The position numbers and the translations under genes are program-made. 20,000 bases of DNA from Chromera velia (taxonomy: Eukaryota > Sar > Chromeraceae): positions 1 through 20,000 of the forward strand of contig JAHBMJ010000606.1 of the NCBI GenBank assembly GCA_018398765.1. Direction: 5' to 3'. This document shows, piece by piece, positions 1,401 through 18,621 of the stretch; position 1 is the stretch's first letter; every line of letters begins with the position of its first letter. The notes under the pieces were generated by a model, which did no database searches, had not been told where the DNA came from, and was given only the letters and a program-made list of their open reading frames with translations.

Positions 1401-2621
1401 CAGACGCACAAACATGCACAGCGGATCAAAAGAGACACACAGACAGACACCCACCCTCCACCCTCCCACCGACCTGCAGAGGCCCTGCACAAGGATACCC
1501 AGAGGCCAGCAGAGGCACAGGCCCGTCTCCCTCCGAGAACGCAACTCCGTATGAGACCTCATATCTCCTGTCTCCCCCCAGAGCCCCCGTGGAGTGCAGC
1601 ACGCTGCCCCTCTCTCCAGGCGAGAGAATCATCTGCATGGATGGATGAATGGATGCAGGCAGGTCGACACAGACCGGGAAAGAGAAAGGGAAAGCAGGAA
1701 GGAAGGAAGAAAGGAAGGAAGGAAGAAAACCCCCTCCGCGTGTGTGCTGTGCACGTTCAAGCCAACTGTGTGCTTAATTGTTTGGCATTTTTCTCTTGAC
1801 ACTGGAGAGATGAAAAAAAACATAAAGAAAACAGAAAGAAAGGGAGGGAAAGAAGAAAGAAAGGGAGGGAGAGAACCAAAGAAGGTTCTCAAAAGAAAGC
1901 ACGCAAGAAAGCAAGAAAGCGAGAAAGCAAGAAAGCAAGAAAGAAAGAAAGAAAGAAAAGAAAGAAAGAAAGAAAAGTAGAGGAAAAACTGAGGTCTCTC
2001 TCAGCTGACCTCTTCTTCCTCTTCCCTCCCCTTCTTCTTTTCTTCGGAGGTCAACAAAACATGGAGGCTTCTATCGAGCTCCCACTCCTCCACCCTTCCC
2101 GCCCCCGAGGCAAAAGCAGCCGTCTCCTCCTTCTCCTTCGGATCCGACTCAACGACCTTCCGTCTCCTCTTGTAGAAGAAGGACCTCTCAGATGGAAGGC
2201 CGACTCCGTAATAACAAAACAGTTTCATGCCGGGGGCCTCCGGGAGGTTCCCCCCCAACACTGAGGTCATCATCCGTGGTGTCTCCTCCGCCGTTGCGTT
2301 CCTCTCTGCCTCCGTCACACCCACAAAACCCAAATAGAAGTTCTCATCAATTGCCCGGGTGATTGCCTCAGACTCCCCCTTCAAGGCTTCGATCGTTTCC
2401 TCGGCTGTCAGGTTGCCTGCAGAAGGAAAGTACGGACATGAGGCATAAAACTTGAATTCGTGCGTTGAAGAAAATGCACGGGGAAAACATCACGCAAGCA
2501 CACGCACACTCAAGCCGAAGGTCAAACAAACGCACGCAAAAAATATGAACGTCGGCTGCCAGACCGCCACATGATTTCAGGACAGGCTCTTTCGGTCGGA
2601 GCTGCGGAAACACCTCACTCG

Positions 2622-2658
<37 letters not shown>

Positions 2659-3814
2659 CGAGAGAGAGAGGGAGAAAAATTAGTGTAGGAACACAGCAGT
2701 TTCGACGCGAAAGCCCATATACCCTTTCACTTTTCCCGTACCGTTAAAAGGAACTTTCTCCTCCTTTCTCCCCTTCTCCATCAATGACAGGTCGCACTCC
2801 TCCCGGTCCCCCTCCTCGCACCCCTCTTCCCCTTCTGCCTCCCCCTCCCCCTCCCTCCGGGCAATCATGGAACCCAAAGACGCCATACCCTCAGCCCGAA
2901 AGAACGAATCCTCAGGAGACAACGGAAGATCCTCTGCCCCCCCACTCGGCAAAGGACCTCCCCAGATCGCATTTCCCCCCTGCAACGCAGAAAAGAAAAC
3001 GAACAAAATTAAAGTGCTACTTTGAAATACTCACAACCGCCTCATGCAGTAGAGATGCCACCCTATACACTGACGACAGCACAAACCAGCCAAAACTCGG
3101 CATGTCTACAATCCATCCGTAAGACGCCAGAAACTCAAATCCCTGCATGCCAAAAAAATCTCCTGGGAGGATTCGCATACGAAAGTGTCTGTATGCATGC
3201 AATACAGCGACTTTGAAAAATGCAGAAGCGATGCGCATGTGCTCATGATCATGCATAGACCACAAGTTTTGAAAACCTCTAGCGAAAATATGTGTGTTTG
3301 AATATGGAAGCGTGTATACGTGTACATGTATTTTTACATGTACTTGCGCCTGTGTGCCTTCGTATTTGTGTGTAAATCTGTCTCTGATGACGAACCTTGG
3401 GGAGCATGTTGAGGAGGGAGTACCAGGTGCGCCACATGGCCCTCCTTCGGTTCGCTGCTAAGCTAAACACACCGCGTGTGAGAATATCCTCCAACGGCCC
3501 CAATTGCGCAATATCCGGGAGCTGTCCCGAGAGCAGAGCCGTTAGTGCCTTGGGCACTCCCAACAGGCAGCCCGCAATTGTGAAGGCCGAGTCGACGTGC
3601 TTCTCGACCCAGTCCTTCCCTCTGTTGCCCCCAAAGGGACTCTCTGCCCACCGAAAGAAGTAGTGCATCATCTGCGTACATACATACACACATACACACT
3701 CACACGACCACATTCGTACTCATACATGCACGCACACACTCAACGGGAGGGAGAGAGAACGGCAAGGGAAGAGACAGACGGGAGAGTCAGGAAAACATGA
3801 GAAAACCATGCTGA

Positions 3815-3851
<37 letters not shown>

Positions 3852-5657
3852 CGCTCGCTCGCCTTTGTTTCCTCCCGTGTCCGTCTTGTGTGTGTACAGC
3901 AACCGGAGGGCCAACCACTTCTGCTCACCCCCATGCAGACCCCACCTCACGTCCCCCCCCTGCACCCACCTGTGTCCCCATGGAATGCGACACAAACACC
4001 GCCTTCTCCCCCGTGACTGCCACTAGAGCCTCCGTCTGGCTGAGGAGACGGGAGAAATACGCGTCCCGGGTCTGGAGGGTTTGGGGGCCCAGGCGCCAGT
4101 CGTACGAGGCCATGTGGAGCATGCCGGGGTCATACCTGCATGCACTCGGTCAGCCAAGCCGGGAGAGACGCTAAAGATCAAAAACCCTCACGCCCACTTC
4201 TCTGCATGCATGGCATCGAGTCCTCCATTCAGTCGGGTGTCGGTCTCAAGTCAATTCAACGAGAAGAGAAAGGAGTTGATTGACCCAGACCCTCTCTCTC
4301 TGTGGAGATCAAGGGGTCCACCCGGGTGTTGACTGTCGGGACTCCTGGAGGTCTCTCTCAAGTGTTCAGCTGTTTGCACAGGAAAAGAAAAAGGGTGGTC
4401 CTTCCTCTAGTCGGAAAAGAGAGAAGAGAAGAGAAGAGAAGAGAAGAGAAGCCAGGCCAAAGAGAGATTGAGATGCAGGAAAGCGAGCGAACAAATCAGC
4501 AGCTGCTAAAACAACAACAACAACAACAAGAAAACGACCCACTGACCCGATTTCCGCCAAGTTCTTGATCAATTTTGCCCACAGCCAGAACCCAGTCACG
4601 AAATAGTCCGCCGCCTCCAGTCCGCTGGCTGCTCTCACCTTGACTTCCTCTGTGTAGTCCTTCCCGTTCTCACTCAACGTCAGTGGGTCTGTGTTGTTCT
4701 CGTTCAAGGTCATGTGTCTCATCCAACAATCAGGGTCTCTCAACAACGAGGTGAACATCGTCAAACCTGAAAAATAAGAGAAAGAAAAAGAAAAAGACCA
4801 GCCTGGGCACGAGCACCATAAGACGTGGAAGAAAAAGGGTTGAAGGAACAAAAAAGATCCCATGCATGCAAGATCGAATCTCTACAAAGACAGAAAATGT
4901 CCAAGACACGGAATGAGTGTGCAGTTTCGGACATTTTCGAGAGAAGATTTCCATAAGTCTGCTTTGTTGCCCGAACCCCAGCTGTGCCTCGTACACCCCT
5001 CTCACAAATGATCGCGTGACTGAGTGAAGTGTATGTGTGTTTGCCTGACTCACCTGCCCATATCCTTTGTCTGAACATGTCCCCCTTCGCGCAGTCTGCA
5101 GGCTTCCAAATCTCCAACCCGCTGGTGATGAATCCAGGCACAATAATCACGGGGTGTTTGGCCCTCGCCCCCTCTTCTGCAAGGACCCGGCCAGGCTCTG
5201 GGGCCACCTCCGTCCAGTCCTTCGCAGTTCTCCGTAACATCATCAGAATATCCACCATGATCGTCGTATCGTTCAGGGACATCAACTCGCTCAACCCAGC
5301 CACGCTGTCCGTCAGCTGACCGTAGAACTGACTGGACACTTCGTCTGGCACCACCTGAGGGACCACAATGATGAGACCCACAAGCACAGATAAAATCCAG
5401 GTCCACCGCCTCTTCCTGCCTTGCGGCTTCTCTGTGACAGCTGAGGGCGTGCTGCCGTCGTCGGAGCCTGCCGGGGTTGTGGCTGGAGAAACGTCAGGCT
5501 CTTTTGATGTAGGGGGGATGTGAAGAAGGTGAGGGGCCGGCTGTGCCTGCGACTGAGGTTGAGGGGGTACCTGTACTTGGACCGTGGCTTTCGACTGCTC
5601 TGGTTGCTGTGCCTGGTTTTGGTTTTGGCGGGCTGCATTTTTTCGTTTCTTTGCCAT
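1014..5657 (-). CDS. PDAT: Phospholipid:diacylglycerol acyltransferase (LCAT family), 8 exons
   Basis: PDAT moves an acyl chain from the sn-2 position of a phospholipid to diacylglycerol, giving triacylglycerol at the ER. Exons in transcript order: 5657-5054, 4766-4547, 4135-3970, 3671-3396, 2979-2742, 2416-2010, 1632-1474, 1286-1014. All phases agree and give 780 residues. The start has a strong ACCATGG context. Residues 1-85 are Gln/Pro-rich with basic ends. One membrane helix lies near 86-103, so the catalytic domain should be lumenal. Family marks: PGFITSGLEIW (lid region), YDWRLG, nucleophile Ser326 in SHSMG, Asp673 in EGDGPVPL and His728 in DHVDVIG. The first residue of the usual GxSxG is Ser here; plant PDATs also depart from Gly at this place. 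Acidic or charged insertions occupy parts of exons 5 and 6, making it longer than yeast PDAT. The last 20 or so residues are uncertain, because a possible donor at 1079 could lead to another exon. Confidence 0.93.
1323..1400. repeat. Compound microsatellite (TC)n(AC)n(AG)n in the last PDAT intron
   Basis: About 16 TC units, 12 AC units and 11 AG units follow one another without interruption. The outer TC and AG blocks are reverse complements, so the stretch can fold as a hairpin with an AC (or, in the PDAT pre-mRNA, GU) loop. It lies wholly within the intron between the exons carrying the catalytic Asp and the catalytic His. Confidence 0.95.
1680..1976. repeat. Polypurine tract rich in GGAA and GAAA in a PDAT intron
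   Basis: On the + strand this stretch is mostly A and G, with irregular GGAAG, AAGAAAGC and GAAA repeats that are densest at 1885-1976. It sits in the intron between exons 6 and 7, so the PDAT transcript reads it as a long pyrimidine tract ahead of the acceptor after 1633. Open frames here (Lys/Glu/Arg-only on +, Phe/Ser/Leu-only on -) are products of the repeat. Confidence 0.9.
2624..2670. repeat. (CA)n microsatellite followed by a short (GA)n
   Basis: About 17 CA units and, after GCGA, about five GA units. It lies in the PDAT intron between exons 5 and 6. Confidence 0.93.
3817..3862. repeat. (TC)n microsatellite grading into (GCTC)n
   Basis: About 16 TC units followed by three to four GCTC/CGCT tetramers, in the PDAT intron between exons 3 and 4. 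Confidence 0.93.
4420..4450. repeat. (GAGAA)n pentanucleotide repeat
   Basis: About six GAGAA units, in the PDAT intron between exons 2 and 3. Confidence 0.9.
4511..4529. repeat. (CAA)n trinucleotide repeat
   Basis: About six CAA units in the same PDAT intron as the pentanucleotide repeat, close to the donor that follows exon 2 (GTCAGT, read on the minus strand from 4546). Confidence 0.9.
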
Positions 5658-6599
5658 GGTCTCTACTTGGGTTCCTCTTCAATGGCCAGTTGCAGGAGAA
5701 ACTTCAGAAGGAAAGGAAGTTTGGAGATCTAAGGTCAAAGCCCTCTAGCTATCCAACTTCTCTACGAAAAGCTTTTTCTAATCCGTAGACGGCACTGATA
5801 AATGTGTAGATTTTCAGTCTTTCGGCTTGATCAAGACAGCAAGAGACCAAGACAAAGACCACTACCTTCTGCCACGCTTCCAAATCTCGGTTTTAGAGAA
5901 AAAGCACCGGATCGAAACAAAAACCGAGGAAGGCTGATGAAGTTAAGAGACGGGACAGACATACACGTTCCCTGTACCTTCGGAGGATTTCACAGCGAAA
6001 CCGTTGGACGGAAGGAAGGCATCACGTCAAGCGAAAGAATATAGACGGGGTTTTCTGGTCAGTGAGTTGGGTGCTCCCTTCTCCTCGGCCAACAGATTCG
6101 CCCGTATCTTCAGTCGACCACAGTATATGATACCATTAATTATGATACCACAGTAACATCATTCGCGAGTCGACCATGCAATTTTTGTGCGAAGGCCGCG
6201 GGGGGGCCGGGGATGCGCATGCATGGTCGGGGAGGCCGCCGCGACCTCCCTAATTAAGTTAATTGAAAGTTTATGAAAGTTTCGGGCGCGCGGATAAAAG
6301 CCCGCGCGGCAGATGTGCGGAGACATGCCGGCCAGAAAAAATGAGGGAACGCCGGAGACTGACTCAGAATTAATTCGCAATTATTTCAGGTCGGTCTGAA
6401 ATTCCACTCTGAATCGCCTTATCTGTCATTGATTCACCTTCGATCTGACATTGCGGTTTCAAGTGTGAAGGAACACCTTCGATCGATCTTTGGCGGTCAG
6501 CCCTGTGTACGTTTGAATCACGGCTGGTCCGCTTTCCATCGAGTATTCAGTCTCTGTCTCTGTCTCCAGTTTCTTGTTTGCCGTCTCCACCTCGTAGAG
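5658..6599. other. Divergent intergenic region between PDAT and the collar-domain gene
   Basis: This 942-base stretch separates two genes that point away from each other, so it should hold both promoters. No coding exon is convincing. Bases 6112-6176 hold several short direct repeats: TATGATACCA at 6126-6135 and 6141-6150, ACCACAGTA at 6117-6125 and 6147-6155, AGTCGACCA at 6112-6120 and 6168-6176. Bases 6250-6310 hold an AT-rich run and then a GC-rich inverted repeat around ATAAAAG. I see no clear TATA-like box for the PDAT direction. Confidence 0.6.
6287..6308 (+). promoter_or_regulatory. Candidate core promoter: TATA-like box between GC-rich inverted arms
   Basis: CGCGCGG at 6287-6293 and CCGCGCG at 6302-6308 are exact reverse complements and enclose ATAAAAGC. 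The box lies about 300 bases before the ATG of the collar-domain gene. The candidate box ahead of the gene at 12646 lies at nearly the same distance and also adjoins GC-rich sequence. Promoter function is an inference. Confidence 0.35.
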
Positions 6600-7774
6600 A
6601 TGAAGCTGGTGTCGTTGCTGTTGGCGCCCTTGTCCCTCGTCTCTGTGGCACATGCGGGGTGTGGCCTGGACATTTTTGGAGTCTGTGGAGGGGCCAAAGA
6701 TGTGGCGGGAGCTCTAGACAGGCTGCCTGATAATATCCGTCAGGCCGCACAGAAAATCCTGGATCATTTGTTCGAGGTCGATTTCCCTCCGGCTGTCGAC
6801 AAAGTGACTGCAGCAGCCAAGGAGGTCGAGGACAGGGCATTGGAAGACTATAAGGAGGCGATCAACGCGACGCGACTGCAGCTACAGGAGCTAGCTGAGT
6901 TTGCCGTGCAGAGAGCAGAGGAGTTGATGAAGGATGCCCAGAGGTCTGTGGAGGAAGTGGTGATGCTGGTGGAGAAGGAGACGACCAAGAATATGCAGAA
7001 GATCATTGCAGACGTGGACAAAAGAGTCAACGCCCTGCTAGACAGACTGGAAAAGATTGGACAGGAGCTCTTTTGTGCAGTGACAGGGTCAGTGGGGGAG
7101 GGACGGGGAAGGGTCGGATTTCAGCAATGCCTCTCCGGAGGCTCATTTTTTCTTTTCTGTACGTTTACCAAGATGTTCATCATCTGTGTGCACGCCTTGA
7201 TTTCCTTGGCCTTGGCACCTTTAAGAAAATGTTCACGTGTTCAGCCTCAGTGGTGCATGTTGCCACAGAGGGAAGAAAATATTTCTTTTCTATTTTCCCG
7301 TCACACATTTACTGATTTGTCTCTCTGCTCGTATGAGAGAGGACATGCAGGTACGTGGACACATTTGAGAAGATGTTCGCGTCCTACTTCGAGAGCGTGG
7401 ATTGTGAGTGCGTCCAGGAGATGTTGAAGGACAATCCGGGGCTGAAGCAGGACTGCAAGTGCTCCAACTGCTTCCATATCGGGGGGTGGTATCCCTCGTG
7501 CAGGTGGGGAGGGGGGGGGAGTTTACAAATTTGCAGTTTGTTCTTTACTTTCTTCCGGCCTTCATAAATTTATGAGTTCACTGACTCGTTGGCCCTTTCA
7601 ATCCTCCCTCGCTGCCTTTGTTCGTTGCTCTTCCTATCCTCCGCGTCTTCCTCCGTGTGAATTCAGCAAGAGAAGGACGCAGGGACATCACGTGCGTGCA
7701 CTCATTTCCTTCCCTGTGTGGGTTCTCGTGATCGAGTCTCCTTTCTCTCCCTCTCACACACACGCACTTACACA

Positions 7775-7821
<47 letters not shown>

Positions 7822-9523
7822 TCTCTTTCTCTTTGACTGTTGTCTGCATCGCTTGACAGTGCAAATGGAAACCCATATGGGTCCCAACGAAGGAAAACCA
7901 TGAAGAACGTCAAACCGGTACGTCAGATTGTGAAGGCCGGCCTCGGCACATCCATTTTTGTTCCCCCCCCCCCCACACCGGATGCAGATGCAACCCCTGG
8001 AGTCTTCATTTTGGACCTGGGTGGTACAACAGAGGCAAATACCAGTACCTCAGGTGCCACATCGAGAAGCCGATCGACTGGGAGAGATGGACGGTGGACC
8101 AAATCGTCAACCAATTGTCCATAGTGCAGGAGGCATCTCTGTCCTTCAGGTAAGTAAATAAATAGTCATCAGATAAATAAGCAGATGCTCCGACAGAATT
8201 GTTGGATTTCTCTCTCGTGCGTTAATTTGCCTTATGTTTCTTTTCCCTCTCCCTTTCCCTTCCGCTCTTCCTCCTCCCCTGTCCCTTTGTCCGCGCATTT
8301 CTCCCCTTCATTGTCTTTCATGTCTCCTGCACTGCCCCATCTTTCTGTCCCTCCTGTCCAAAATATGTCTCCATTCCATTCCTCTCAGACGCACACACAT
8401 AATGCAGCGTCCCTCCCTTCTCGTCCCTCCTTCATTCCTTGCATGCAGATGTCTAGAGGACCTGCAGCCCGGCTCCACAGTGAACAAGAAATACTTCTCA
8501 GAGGAATTCGTGCACTACGCTGAGCAGATGCTCGTGTGGGGGGACAACAGGGCCTCCTCAGACGACGTTTCGTCTCCTCTCATCATCGAGGCTCCGTCTC
8601 CCTCCGTCTCCAACAGCAGCCTCTCTCTCTCCTCCTCAACCGCCTACATCGCCGCTTCCCTGAAAGCTCTGCGCTCCCCCGCCCCCTCTCCCTCCCTCCC
8701 AGCTCCCGCCAACGAAGAGACCAACGAAAGCGCCCTGACGGTTTCCTTCACCGTCGACACAGAGACAGTCGACACCCCTCCTGCCTTCCTTCCCGTCAAG
8801 GAGGAGACCAACACGGGTGCGAAGAAGAGCAAACACGCACAGAAGCAGAAGCAGGCGAGAGAGGGAGAAGATCCTTCCACAGACTGCAAAGGCCTCACAG
8901 TCGCCGAGTGTGCCTCAAAAGTGATGAAAGCGTTACAGTCCCAAAAGGCAGAACTGGATGCTGCAATGGCATCCTTCACGGAGAGGGAGAAGGCCCTAGC
9001 CACGAGAGAGGAGATGCAAAAGGCAGTGGAGGCAGTGAACGCCACTGCCATAGAGGCGAAAGAAGCAGCCTCCAAAACGGTCAGCACGGGGACGATTGTT
9101 GCAATGGCATCGTCTGAGGTGCCTGAGGGATTCCTCTTTTGTGATGGTTCCACCATCAGCAGGCTCGATTACGTGAGTCTGTTCAAAGTAGTGGGTGAGA
9201 CTTTTGGTGCAGGAGACGGCAGTTCAACGTTCAACCTGCCGGACTTGAGGGGAAGGACTCTGATAGGGCATGGGCAGGGGGTGGGGTTGACTGAGCGTGT
9301 GGTCGGTTCGACTGGGGGGAATGAGACGCACAAGCTGAGTGAGTCTGAGATGCCGAGTCATAGCCACTCTGTGACAATTTTCCAGGGCCAGTACCCCCAG
9401 AGCGGGAAGAGTACTAACTGCTGGTCCGGTACCAGAACGGCAGAGTCTGCGAAAGCGGGGGGGGACAAGCCTCATAACAACATGCAGCCGTTCGCTGTGG
9501 TGAAGTATTACATTAAGGCTTGA
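6600..9523 (+). CDS. Putative secreted fibre-like protein with C-terminal phage tail collar domain, 4 exons
   Basis: Exons 6600-7087, 7351-7503, 7988-8149 and 8449-9523 join with matching phase (2 at every junction) and give 625 residues. Residues 1-19 form a signal peptide (hydrophobic core, likely cut after AHA). Residues 35-155 are predicted helical, charged and coiled-coil-like, with one NAT glycosylation sequon. Residues 163-270 are rich in Cys and Trp (DCEC, DCKCSNC, WYPSCRC). A Ser/Pro/Thr-rich linker, a Lys-rich patch and a second helical stretch follow to about 480. Residues 483 to the end match the tail collar (PF07484) fold: EVPEGFLFCDGS, PDLRGR at 532-537, MPSHSHS at 569-575 and a NNMQPF C-terminal end. 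In phage fibres and the bacterial Mdp-like proteins this module forms a trimeric fibre tip. ATG 6600 is chosen because the signal peptide begins there. The ligand and role are unknown; export and fibre-like assembly are inferred. The junction 7503 to 7988 is the least certain. Confidence 0.8.
7778..7834. repeat. (TC)n microsatellite grading into (TTTCTC)n
   Basis: About 17 TC units pass into about four TTTCTC hexamers. In the collar-gene model this lies in the second intron, on the coding strand, where it could act as a pyrimidine tract. Confidence 0.93.
7860..7921 (+). other. Possible alternative or relict exon in intron 2 of the collar gene
   Basis: After a plausible acceptor (TTGACAG) one frame reads a Trp- and Lys-rich peptide beginning CKWKPIWVP, in style like the flanking Cys/Trp module. 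With the donor GTCAGA at 7922 it would enter the next exon in the right phase, but it cannot be joined in phase to any plausible donor of exon 2. The frame that does follow exon 2 leads to a stop in exon 4. It is left out of the main model. It could be an alternative exon, a decayed exon, or a sign of a sequence error. Confidence 0.3.
9092..9520 (+). other. Tail collar domain and C-terminal fibre tip of the secreted protein
   Basis: This part of the last exon encodes residues 483-625. The first half holds the classic collar signature: a Gly- and Pro-containing turn before LFCDGS, a Leu-Phe helix, then GDGSSTFNLPDLRGR. The second half has the His-x-His of MPSHSHS, which in T4 short tail fibre gp12 binds a metal ion at the trimer axis, and ends in a NNMQPF strand as gp12-like proteins do. 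There is no intron within the domain. Confidence 0.88.
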
Positions 9524-15600: not shown

Positions 15601-16499
15601 CCAGCGCTCTGTACAATCTCTTGAACTCCCTCACCTTCCGGGGCCACTACCCGATACAGGGCCAGAGTCCTGCTGGGGCCTCCTTCGGTTCCTTCGGCCT
15701 GGTCCCTGCTCGCAGCAAGGGGCAGGAGAAGGAAAGTGTGAGGGGCAGTCCTCGGAGCAACAAGGAGAAGGATCAAGAAAAAGAGAAGGAAAAGAAGGAG
15801 AAGGAGAAAGGGAATCAGAAAGGAACTCCCAAAAACGAGGACGCAAAGGAAAAGGAGAAGGAAAAAGAAAAGAAGCAGAAAGAGAAGGAGAAGCAGACGA
15901 CGAAAGGGTCACCAAAGAACAAGGAGAAGAAAGAGGAGAAGGAGAAGGGGGGTCGATGTTCCCCTGCAGAGAGCGTTGAGAAAGACAAAGAGAAGAAGGA
16001 AAGAGACGAAGAGCTGTCCTTCATGGAAATGAAGGAAGTCACTGGACGAGGAGGCAACGAAGAGTCAGTCTGTCAGTCCCCCCACACAGCTAGCAGAACA
16101 GTTTGTTGACACTCGCGTATGTACATCAAGGAAAGTGGCAATGCTCTTTTGGGGGTGAAGGGACAGAAACGCTCGCACACCCACAACGACGTATGAGTTT
16201 CTGCGTTCATCAACTTTCCTCTCCCTTTTCGCACCGCCTGATGCTTGATGCTTCGATCCTTTTTAGTGACATGCGCAAGGAATGCATTCCACACTTTCTT
16301 TTGTGTCCATGCTCCTTCTTCCCTGTTTTCAATGCGCACTTCTCCCCCCCGGGCTAGAATCCATTCTTCTCTCTCTTTCTACATTTCATTCCTTCAACTC
16401 CGTCCTTCAAGGGATCCGTCTGACTCATCAAGAGTGTCTGCTTGCTCATCCTTTTGAATTGACCCATTGTGTATTTGGCTGACCGTCCCTCTGTCTGTC

Positions 16500-16542
<43 letters not shown>

Positions 16543-18621
16543 AGAGAATTCGACGACCCCTTCTGTGCCTACGCCCATCTGGTCGACATTCTCTCCCAAC
16601 AGTATATCCAGGCCAGACAACCCCTCCTTCCCTCCAGCCTTCCCCCCCATCGGAACAAGATCCTCTCACCCGAGACCTTTTTCGATCTGTTCGTCAGACC
16701 CCCCGGGGGATGGACGAAGGACACGGCGGCATGCAAAGCAGAACGAGTGTTCTTCTACTCACGATCTCAGTTCTTCAGTCAGAGGGGTGAAGAGAAACCC
16801 CAACTCCCACCCTCGCTTTCCCAGAACCCTGCACCGTCCAAAGCTCCTCAGTCTTCTTCCTCCCACGTCCCACCCGCCCTTGAATCCCTCACAGACCCTG
16901 AGAACGAGGAAATCATCCTCAACAACTCCTACTCCCCCGACGCCCTCACTGCAGCCGCAGGACGGTCCCTGTTGAAATGCGGGACCATCAGAAGTCCTGC
17001 CGGCCCCCCCGCGCCCTGCCCCCTCCACCTGACAGTCTCGTGGCCTGTCTGTCTCTTCTGTAGCGTCCGCCACCCCCCAGCCAGCGCTGAGTCAGAAGGA
17101 TTGCCCAAGTCCGCCTGCGCGTGTCCCTGGCACCTCAGCCCAAAGCTGGAATCCCGGTCTGATAATCTGAGTATCTTCTACTCCCCTCAAGTAAGGCTCC
17201 GTCTCCAAAGACAGATCCGAAGAGTTCTCTTCAGGAGACTCAACGGGAGGGAAGTGGGGGTAGATTTCGTGAAGGAATTTCCAATTGGAGAGAAAATGAC
17301 CCAAAGGGTGATTGACACCATGATGGGCCCCCTGTCAGCTGTCCTGCTCGGTCTCGGCGTCTTGTTGTCAACTTTCACGGCCTCCCGGAAAGAGCACCCA
17401 CGGCTTCAAGCTGCATGGGTAGCTCCAAGGGAATCGCCGGATGGCGAGTGTGACAAGGCGAATATGAAACAGAAGAAATGTATCTTCAGACCTGAGAACA
17501 CAAAGGAACATTTGCGTCACCCCGTCCTTCAACACATCACCCCTTCTGTGATCCTCGAAGCTGTTTTGCGACTTCGACGCCTGGAGGGCATTTCTGTCCT
17601 CTCCGACACAGAATGGACTTTGATGGGTTGTTTCCATCTTCCGTCCTCGGATATTCTATGGGGAGATATGCAGTGGGCTCGGGTCTGTGGGCCGACGTGT
17701 GAGAAGGCGCTGTCGACTTTGGAGAGGGAGGAGGAGAAAGATGCGTGCCGACCGGCAGTTCTGGAAATGTTTAAGGCAGAAAGAGACCCACTATGTGCCT
17801 CGGGTGGGGCCGGAATGGTCACTAAGTGGATGCTGCAGGCGCAGCAGCGGGAGGACGGAGAGAAAGAGAAAGAGGGGGGGGATGAGGAAGGGGGGGGTTC
17901 CCAAGGAAGTGAAGGGTGTTCGGTAGAGGACGGAGGTGAGAGTCCCGAGAAGGGGGCTCCAGACGTCTCCTCCTTTTCCTTGTCTGTTCCAGCACACTTG
18001 AATCCTCGTTATTCCGTTGCGTTCGCAGTTCACAGAGAGTCCTGTGCTCCCTCTTGCCGCTTCCCGCCTGTGAAGTCGTGGGAGAGGAAGACGGTGACTG
18101 GAGAGAGAGAGAGCGCGGCAAATGATGCGGACATGCGGAGAGAGTTTGAGGATTGGGGATATCCTCTTCTCACCAAAATGTTTGAAGAGAAGGAAAGGAT
18201 GGAAAGAAGAGCGGTTGAGGAGAAGAGGAAGGCAGAGAGAAGGAGGGAAAAGGCCAAGGAGAGAGCGGAAAGGAAAAAGGAGGAAAAGGCGTCGGCTGAG
18301 GGGGGTGGGGGGACCGTTGAGGAGAAACAGAAGGCGAAAAAGAAGTCGGATGAAGAGACGGAAAGGGAAAAGGAGAAGGCCGTGAAGAAAGTCAGAAAGA
18401 CAAACAGCAAGGCATCATTGACCGGGGGATCAGCTGATCCTCCTGCATTGTCCTCCTCTGCCTTCTCTGCGTCTGTCTCGTCTTCCTCTTCCTCTTCGTC
18501 GAAGCCAAAGAGTTCTGCAGCGAAGTCTGCAAACCAAGGGAAAGGGGGAAAAGAAACTGACAAGTCGGGGGAGGGATCGAAGGGAAGTGGGCCTCCGGGT
18601 GAGGGGGGGGAGAGAACCTAG
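12646..18621 (+). CDS. Large charged, low-complexity protein of unknown function, 6 exons
   Basis: I do not recognise this protein. Exons 12646-13457, 13747-14783, 14985-15050, 15112-15225, 15556-16063 and 16545-18621 agree in phase and give about 1537 residues. The ATG at 12646 is the first in this frame. The best-conserved-looking parts are about 33-125 and 272-400, where ordinary mixed sequence predominates. A Gln run lies near 126-134, a Gly run near 456, a Pro-rich stretch near 481-502 and a charged helix near 573-615. Residues 744-822 are almost only Lys and Glu. Exon 6 starts with EFDDPFCAYAHLVDIL and holds a hydrophobic stretch near 1105-1125 that might be buried or a membrane segment, a long Glu/Arg/Lys helix near 1391-1428, and a Ser-rich then Lys/Gly-rich tail. 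There is no signal peptide. A cytosolic or nuclear scaffold is possible. Exons 3 and 4 are small and the least certain. Confidence 0.75.
14985..15050 (+). other. Small exon 3 of the large unknown gene, acceptor uncertain
   Basis: A 66-base exon after CCCTCAG joins exons 2 and 4 in phase and reads a His/Thr/Arg-rich peptide from a CA-rich stretch. A stronger-looking acceptor, CTCTGCAG at 14952, gives a frame that stops at 15041 (TAG) with no usable donor before it. The codons are repeat-like, so this exon could also be partly wrong. Confidence 0.4.
16504..16538 (+). repeat. (TG)n microsatellite directly before a splice acceptor
   Basis: About 17 TG units end six bases before the TTTGCAG acceptor of the last exon of the large gene. 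On the transcript this is a long GU run in the place where a pyrimidine tract would usually lie. Confidence 0.93.

Follow-up and report, generated by a model that had tools for sequence, protein, structure and literature searches.

The gene at positions 6600-9523 of a 20,000-nucleotide stretch of the Chromera velia genome, hereafter called the window, joins a predicted signal peptide and spliced upstream exons to a complete phage-type tail collar domain (PF07484). On balance, we favor the interpretation that its product is a secreted adhesin of a photosynthetic alveolate, rod-shaped and probably trimeric, with a collar captured from a phage or prophage tail gene. The collar of such a gene would have been fused to a eukaryotic export signal and a stalk. 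The signal peptide would send the protein into the secretory pathway, two helical stalks would space out a Cys/Trp-rich module, and the C-terminal phage-type collar would serve both as trimer clamp and as binding tip, as in short tail fibres. Three paralogues have collars of the bacterial microcystin-dependent type, which would have been acquired in a single capture or in several; two of these paralogues carry the collar in circularly permuted form.

The gene appears to be a clear example of a receptor-binding part of phages that serves in a eukaryotic secreted protein, in which the collar type is readable from the sequence, and the same genome appears to contain at least two collar captures. 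If these proteins are surface adhesins of a chromerid, they would be relevant to the way in which organisms related to the parasitic Apicomplexa deal with bacteria or hosts.

A spliced gene in eukaryotic DNA

The collar gene is located on the + strand and consists of four exons, which encode 625 amino acids in a spliced frame that is open over 625 codons. Exon 1 (6600..7087) starts with the first Met codon of its frame at 6600 and covers the signal peptide, the N-terminal part and helical stalk 1; it ends in phase 2 at the donor AGG|GTCAGT. The gene model assigns the first half of the Cys/Trp-rich module to exon 2 (7351..7503) and the second half to exon 3 (7988..8149). Exon 4 (8449..9523), supported by the gene model and the coding signal, contains the Ser/Pro-rich linker, the second helix, the collar domain and the stop codon. 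All three introns are of the GT-AG type and in phase 2, in agreement with the three phase-consistent introns proposed in the first-pass annotation. The donors GTCAGT and GTGGGG are not textbook sequences; the acceptor reads TGCAG at all eight sites in the models of the window gene and its three paralogues.

The exons show a codon-position structure (GC3 0.65-0.86 vs GC2 0.33-0.49) that is absent from the introns, where GC is 0.44-0.54 at all positions. Stop codons in the three frames number 2, 0 and 2 in intron 1, 4, 4 and 1 in intron 2, and 2, 5 and 1 in intron 3. When 5000 sequences were simulated with a first-order Markov model, a stretch of the length of exon 1 was stop-free in two of them and one of the length of exon 4 in none. 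The frame of exon 1 remains open across intron 1 and ends only at 7427, and hence no stop within intron 1 forces its removal; as this intron is 263 nt long, its retention would nevertheless lose the frame of exon 2. The exon structure is established at the DNA level, and the gene is presumably transcribed.

We consider it very improbable that the upstream exons are not joined to the collar, be it because the collar exon was recently inserted from a virus or bacterium or because two neighboring genes have been read as one. Such a reading could draw on the open frame of exon 1 without the first splice, on the location of the collar in a single exon and on the presence of PF07484 tail fibres in virophages as well (PMC12724248), which makes an endogenous virus a conceivable source. 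However, the three phase-2 junctions preserve one frame, and the coding signal of exon 4 is missing from intron 3, where a separate start would lie. Furthermore, no phage structural genes were found around the collar, and LCAT (lecithin:cholesterol acyltransferase) was the only other Pfam family when 10 of the 42 window ORFs of at least 120 aa were scanned.

This LCAT-like gene adjoins the collar gene in divergent orientation (window 2001-5678, - strand); it is spliced, with pieces of PF02450 in three ORFs, and TTTTTCAG is the sequence at one of its likely acceptors, in contrast to the TGCAG of the collar-gene models. Further downstream, a frame of 712 aa from stop to stop is open on the + strand (window 16483-18621), the C-terminal part of which is charged and of low complexity; it matches no Pfam family at E 0.001. 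Neither Rfam, searched at the gathering threshold, nor a tRNA scan gave a match in the window.

The genome searched comprises 177.8 Mb in 4040 contigs, and the window belongs to contig C605, a label that we also use for its collar copy. The alveolin model PF12314 has 11 matches in this genome and matched one of 14 control genomes (a bacterium), and the light-harvesting family PF00504 has 58 matches and likewise matched one of the 14 controls (a cyanobacterium). The window reads as eukaryotic DNA, because the adjacent LCAT-like gene is spliced and the genome contains alveolin and light-harvesting genes, and the matches to PF12314 and PF00504 point to a photosynthetic alveolate as the source of the genome. 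Bacterial contamination of the assembly might come to mind with a collar family that is bacterial and phage-borne, but we rejected it: with introns in the gene itself, a spliced LCAT-like neighbor on the same contig and intron-bearing paralogues on three other contigs, its probability is close to nil.

A collar domain at the end of a stalked, probably secreted protein

The collar core (residues 482-538; 9089..9259) matches the Pfam profile PF07484 with an E-value of 9.9e-21 and 73.9 bits, compared with a gathering cut-off of 24. The whole collar extends to residue 625, and its remaining part (9260..9520) comprises the MPSHSH motif, a variable loop of about 35 residues that reaches to NNMQPF, and the closing segment GGDKPHNNMQPFAVVKYYIKA, which ends the domain as in phage tail proteins. 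The profile match and the motifs FCDGS, PDLRGR, MPSHSHS and NNMQPF, all of which are found, agree with the full collar domain claimed in the first-pass annotation. Its relatives by sequence in the PDB are T4 gp12 (1ocy, 1pdi) and a long tail fibre (8kec), and in PHROGs it matches tail families. The domain has the normal order and is not permuted. The AlphaFold2 monomer of the collar is poor (mean pLDDT of 42-69 in 10-residue blocks), and its putative fold, the intertwined trimer known from T4 gp12, is therefore taken from homology.

The protein starts with a predicted signal peptide (residues 1-19, MKLVSLLLAPLSLVSVAHA; 6600..6656), recognized from sequence and hydropathy by a hydrophobic core (KD 2.3) that is followed by AHA|GC. 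No later transmembrane-like segment was detected by hydropathy along the protein, the best 19-aa stretch reaching a KD of 0.94. An N-terminal signal peptide and no second transmembrane segment are features of eukaryotic secreted proteins, and secretion is the fate they would predict for this one. Algae with complex plastids also start their plastid proteins with a signal peptide, and the genome, with its 58 PF00504 matches, is photosynthetic; the leader could accordingly belong to a bipartite plastid-targeting sequence of a protein that works in or around the complex plastid. We consider this improbable, because the region behind the signal peptide is not a basic, Ser/Thr-rich transit peptide but a mixed, acidic stretch leading straight into the stalk, and because the five N-glycosylation sequons of the protein suit a secreted protein.

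Helical stalk 1 (residues 64-160; 6789..7079) was assigned by its helical periodicity, which none of 2000 shuffled sequences matched. The periodicity of the second stalk is weaker, with 85 of 2000 shuffles reaching it. For this stalk, AlphaFold2 predicts a single 60-residue helix (8900..9079; residues 8-67 of the piece window:8879-9520); the first five 10-residue blocks of this piece have a mean pLDDT of 94-96 and the following ones of 80 and 66. Between the Cys/Trp-rich module and this helix lies a Ser/Pro-rich linker of low complexity (about residues 303-400; 8552..8845), recognized from its sequence. Signal peptide, stalk, Cys/Trp-rich module, Ser-rich linker and second stalk had all been anticipated from the DNA, and sequence, periodicity and the AlphaFold2 helix bear them out.

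For the Cys/Trp-rich module of exons 2 and 3, which is probably disulfide-bonded, the genome itself contains no relative (E 0.01), and Pfam offers no matching family (E 0.001). When residues 1-300 were compared with the genome, they returned themselves and one weak match on another contig, in the stalk region (E 0.002). No other part of the protein is as elaborate as this module, which could itself be the real binding part. It is possible, though rather unlikely, that the collar is only a C-terminal trimerisation clamp without adhesive function, and that the protein acts through this module or its stalk, e.g., as a structural protein of the cell wall or matrix. In line with such a role, the presumed binding loop is missing from the permuted paralogues. 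The window collar, in contrast, retains its 35-residue loop (approximate length), and in phages the collar end of the T4 gp12 fibre is the receptor-binding end. We prefer the reading of an adhesin with the collar at its tip.

Like T4 gp12 and phage tail fibres, the window protein carries its PF07484 domain (9.9e-21) at the C-terminus of a helical stalk. Unlike them, it starts with a signal peptide, its nuclear gene is spliced, and the 10 window ORFs scanned contained no phage gene other than the collar. That domains of the phage fibre type can occur in eukaryotes has a precedent in the eukaryotic transcription factor MyRF, which differs from the window protein in its domain and its role. MyRF is named in PMC10769870 as a protein with a phage-type S74 domain. 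The same paper describes the mosaic adhesive trimer (MAT) fibres of Bdellovibrio, a set that includes a member shown to bind surface glycans of the prey (PMC10769870). By anatomy, these chimeric fibres resemble the algal proteins in having a signal peptide, a stalk, a phage-fibre-like tip and several members, and the window protein may, by this analogy, work like a MAT fibre. It does not appear to be a MAT member, because the three of the four algal proteins that were tested (the window protein, C960 and C3680) show no match at E 0.1 to the model NF053851, which represents the conserved, beta-rich N-terminal domain that follows the signal peptide in the MAT superfamily. Two bacterial proteins with permuted collars match the MAT N-terminal model weakly, at 36.5 and 24.4 bits against a cut-off of 60. 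The word "collar" is absent from the main text of PMC10769870.

At least two captures of algal collars

A search of the genome with PF07484 gave five matches at four loci, and four of the 14 control genomes, all of them bacteria, matched as well; a protein search with C3897 as query led to the same four loci. Besides the window gene, these are C960 (381 aa, one intron), C3680 (257 aa, three introns) and C3897 (211 aa, one intron), which lie on three other contigs and all begin with a signal-peptide-like stretch; the three paralogues score 96.1, 85.3 and 87.7 bits with PF07484. The search for paralogues in the same genome that the first-pass annotation had advised thus yielded three, and in the gene models all four collar loci are split by introns. 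In C3897, the intron lies within the collar (...SILGT|TYGGDG...), and in C3680 one intron lies within the collar (...PPAG|W...) and another between two collar parts. Consequently, the confinement of the collar to one exon, which had been expected of a captured module, holds for the window gene but is no feature of the family. C960 contains a short collagen-like stretch flanked by cysteines (CTGCREGPPGPRGPQGPPGPPGVCSC). In C3680, the last stretch of exon 2 together with the donor behind it (cagtacatcatcgcactcgag|gtcggttgg) occurs in three tandem copies (L007 2300-2580, G000:C3680), and the gene therefore has three equivalent donors.

For the tree, 438 domain hits were reduced to 382 of near full length, 324 unique ones and, by clustering at 66% identity, 102 rows, to which the four algal rows were added; clustering removed, for example, two of five phage-record domains as near-duplicates. 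The tree is based on 93 columns, and 46 of its 103 inner branches are open. One split, supported at 95/97, separates a phage-type side, consisting of 16 viral or phage rows and C605, from a bacterial side of 89 rows that includes the other three algal copies. The 26 rows from viral contigs are divided equally, 13 on the phage-type and 13 on the bacterial-type side, and "phage-type" for this reason denotes a type of collar and not proof of the donor. By identity, C605 is closest to a viral contig (57% over the N-part), and it shares the closing motif GGD.PHNNMQPF..V.YIIK with viral-contig and prophage tail proteins. The nearest kin of C960, C3680 and C3897 are bacterial proteins of the microcystin-dependent type, with maximum identities of 72, 62 and 69% in the N-part, respectively. 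In the loci fetched, these bacterial proteins are mostly ORFs of about 170-210 aa in tandem, whereas the algal paralogues occur one per locus, bear introns, start with a signal-peptide-like stretch and are permuted in two cases.

A clade of all four algal collars was rejected (AU p = 0.019), and at least two captures therefore took place, one of them from a phage-type gene. A clade of the three bacterial-type algal collars was not rejected (p = 0.237), nor was it shown, and C960 with C3680 in one clade was likewise not rejected (p = 0.252), yet the tree found leaves them apart.

Bacterial phage-type collars are hardly sampled in the main tree. In the phylum to which G400 belongs (the Tritonibacter genome that contains L030), 22 of 398 genomes had any match at 1e-18, and two of these matches are the strongest bacterial relatives of C605 that were found (47 and 46% over 146 aa). 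In the phylum that includes G404 (the Nocardioides genome with L099), 10 of 396 genomes had matches, none as strong as the 46-47% pair. Seven of eight ORFs tested next to the two strong relatives belong to major head, head-tail adaptor and tail protein families, and for this reason we refer to them as prophages. They were included only in a quick tree, in which they grouped with C605 at an SH-aLRT of 72 and were joined with the viral rows of L185 at 85; the branches around C605 had values of 67-90, and none was starred. The viral contig L185 has a frame of 1416 aa, read from the locus edge onwards, that contains three collar stretches; the whole protein also matches Fibritin_C and Gp10_C above the cut-offs.

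A collar of phage or bacterial kind in a eukaryotic gene with introns and a signal peptide, the central proposal of the first-pass annotation, has therefore stood, and intron-bearing paralogues now accompany it. The profile search and tree that it advised place C605 with phage, viral-contig and prophage tail genes. It had named a contaminant collar without intron-bearing relatives as evidence to the contrary; C605 instead lies outside the bacterial microcystin-dependent-type clade, on the phage side of the 95/97 split, and has such relatives. The proposed transfer from a bacterium or phage agrees with the phage-type affinity of C605 in the trees, but a single transfer does not suffice for the whole set, which has at least two origins.

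A circularly permuted collar and its possible route

In C960 and C3680, the C-terminal strand of the collar precedes the N-terminal part and is not repeated afterwards. Both proteins show the order of closing segment (PY..LNYIIALEGIYPSRN in C960), linker, N-terminal part (TIGQVALFAG...LPDLRGR...IPSHNH) and protein end, the latter following just past the PSHNH-type motif, so that the variable loop is missing. Protein databases list some eukaryotic PF07484 proteins. Among the titles and beginnings of abstracts listed from the open-licence literature, neither an algal collar protein nor a permuted collar is described, an absence that carries little weight; the circular permutation in the two algal paralogues is new here.

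The same order is present in four proteins of Bacteroidota (L044, L050, L205 and L222). The ORFs of 164 loci (L023-L186) were scanned for the two collar parts, and 310 of them had a match: 241 in normal order, 63 with the first part only, two with the last part only, one with three first parts, two permuted (L044 and L050, both Bacteroidota) and one compound (L071, from a planctomycete). In the phylum of L044, 86 of 395 genomes match the permuted profile at 1e-20, many of them with the N-terminal part only. Among the matches listed, at least four genomes have a full-length, stop-free match, of which at least three have a genuinely permuted order (L187, which is the L044 gene again; L205; L222) and at least one, L225, is a fusion of tandem collars that keeps the normal order. 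L044 carries a collagen-like stretch ahead of its permuted collar, and C960 a shorter one. For L050, the structure prediction was low (mean pLDDT 40.7).

Permuted collars represent a rare structural marker, and their possible origin is suggested by the bacterial loci. At least one tandem collar pair was found in 68 of 79 scorable loci (80 fetched), 121 pairs in total. These numbers are no census, because the permuted C960 collar served as query for the loci, and such a query favors junctions between the end of one collar gene and the beginning of another. The median distance between one collar's end and the next one's start in these 121 pairs is 36 nt; 87 pairs share a frame, and in 69 of the 87 a single stop codon splits the stop-to-stop frames. 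This arrangement suggests that tandem genes one stop codon apart fused, and that trimming at both ends of the fusion left the permuted domain. In L225 (G170), a 560-aa ORF contains three complete collar domains head to tail in one bacterial frame; such a fusion could be the kind of intermediate able to yield a permuted collar.

The two permuted algal proteins possess one cysteine shortly before the first collar segment and another within five residues of the C-terminus (positions 224 and 377 in C960, 103 and 254 in C3680). The positions suggest a disulfide that may re-close the cut loop; this pair was not seen in the four bacterial permuted proteins. The linkers of C960 and C3680 are alike and longer than the bacterial ones. 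A single origin of all permuted collars, algal and bacterial, was not rejected (p = 0.128). Repeated permutation is possible, because the tree found demands at least five changes of state.

Taken together, the four algal loci may, though we think it less likely than not, form a small repertoire of secreted fibre proteins, built from several independent captures of phage or bacterial tips, including a permuted collar born of tandem genes, and as such a eukaryotic counterpart of the fibre sets of predatory bacteria. The permuted collars of Bacteroidota, which sit on proteins with signal-peptide-like starts, would form part of this reading. A different arrangement is found in the planctomycete locus L071 (G003), where a long open frame holds collar parts in the order C-N-N-C-N, with an HEQGH motif between them that is reminiscent of a metalloprotease.
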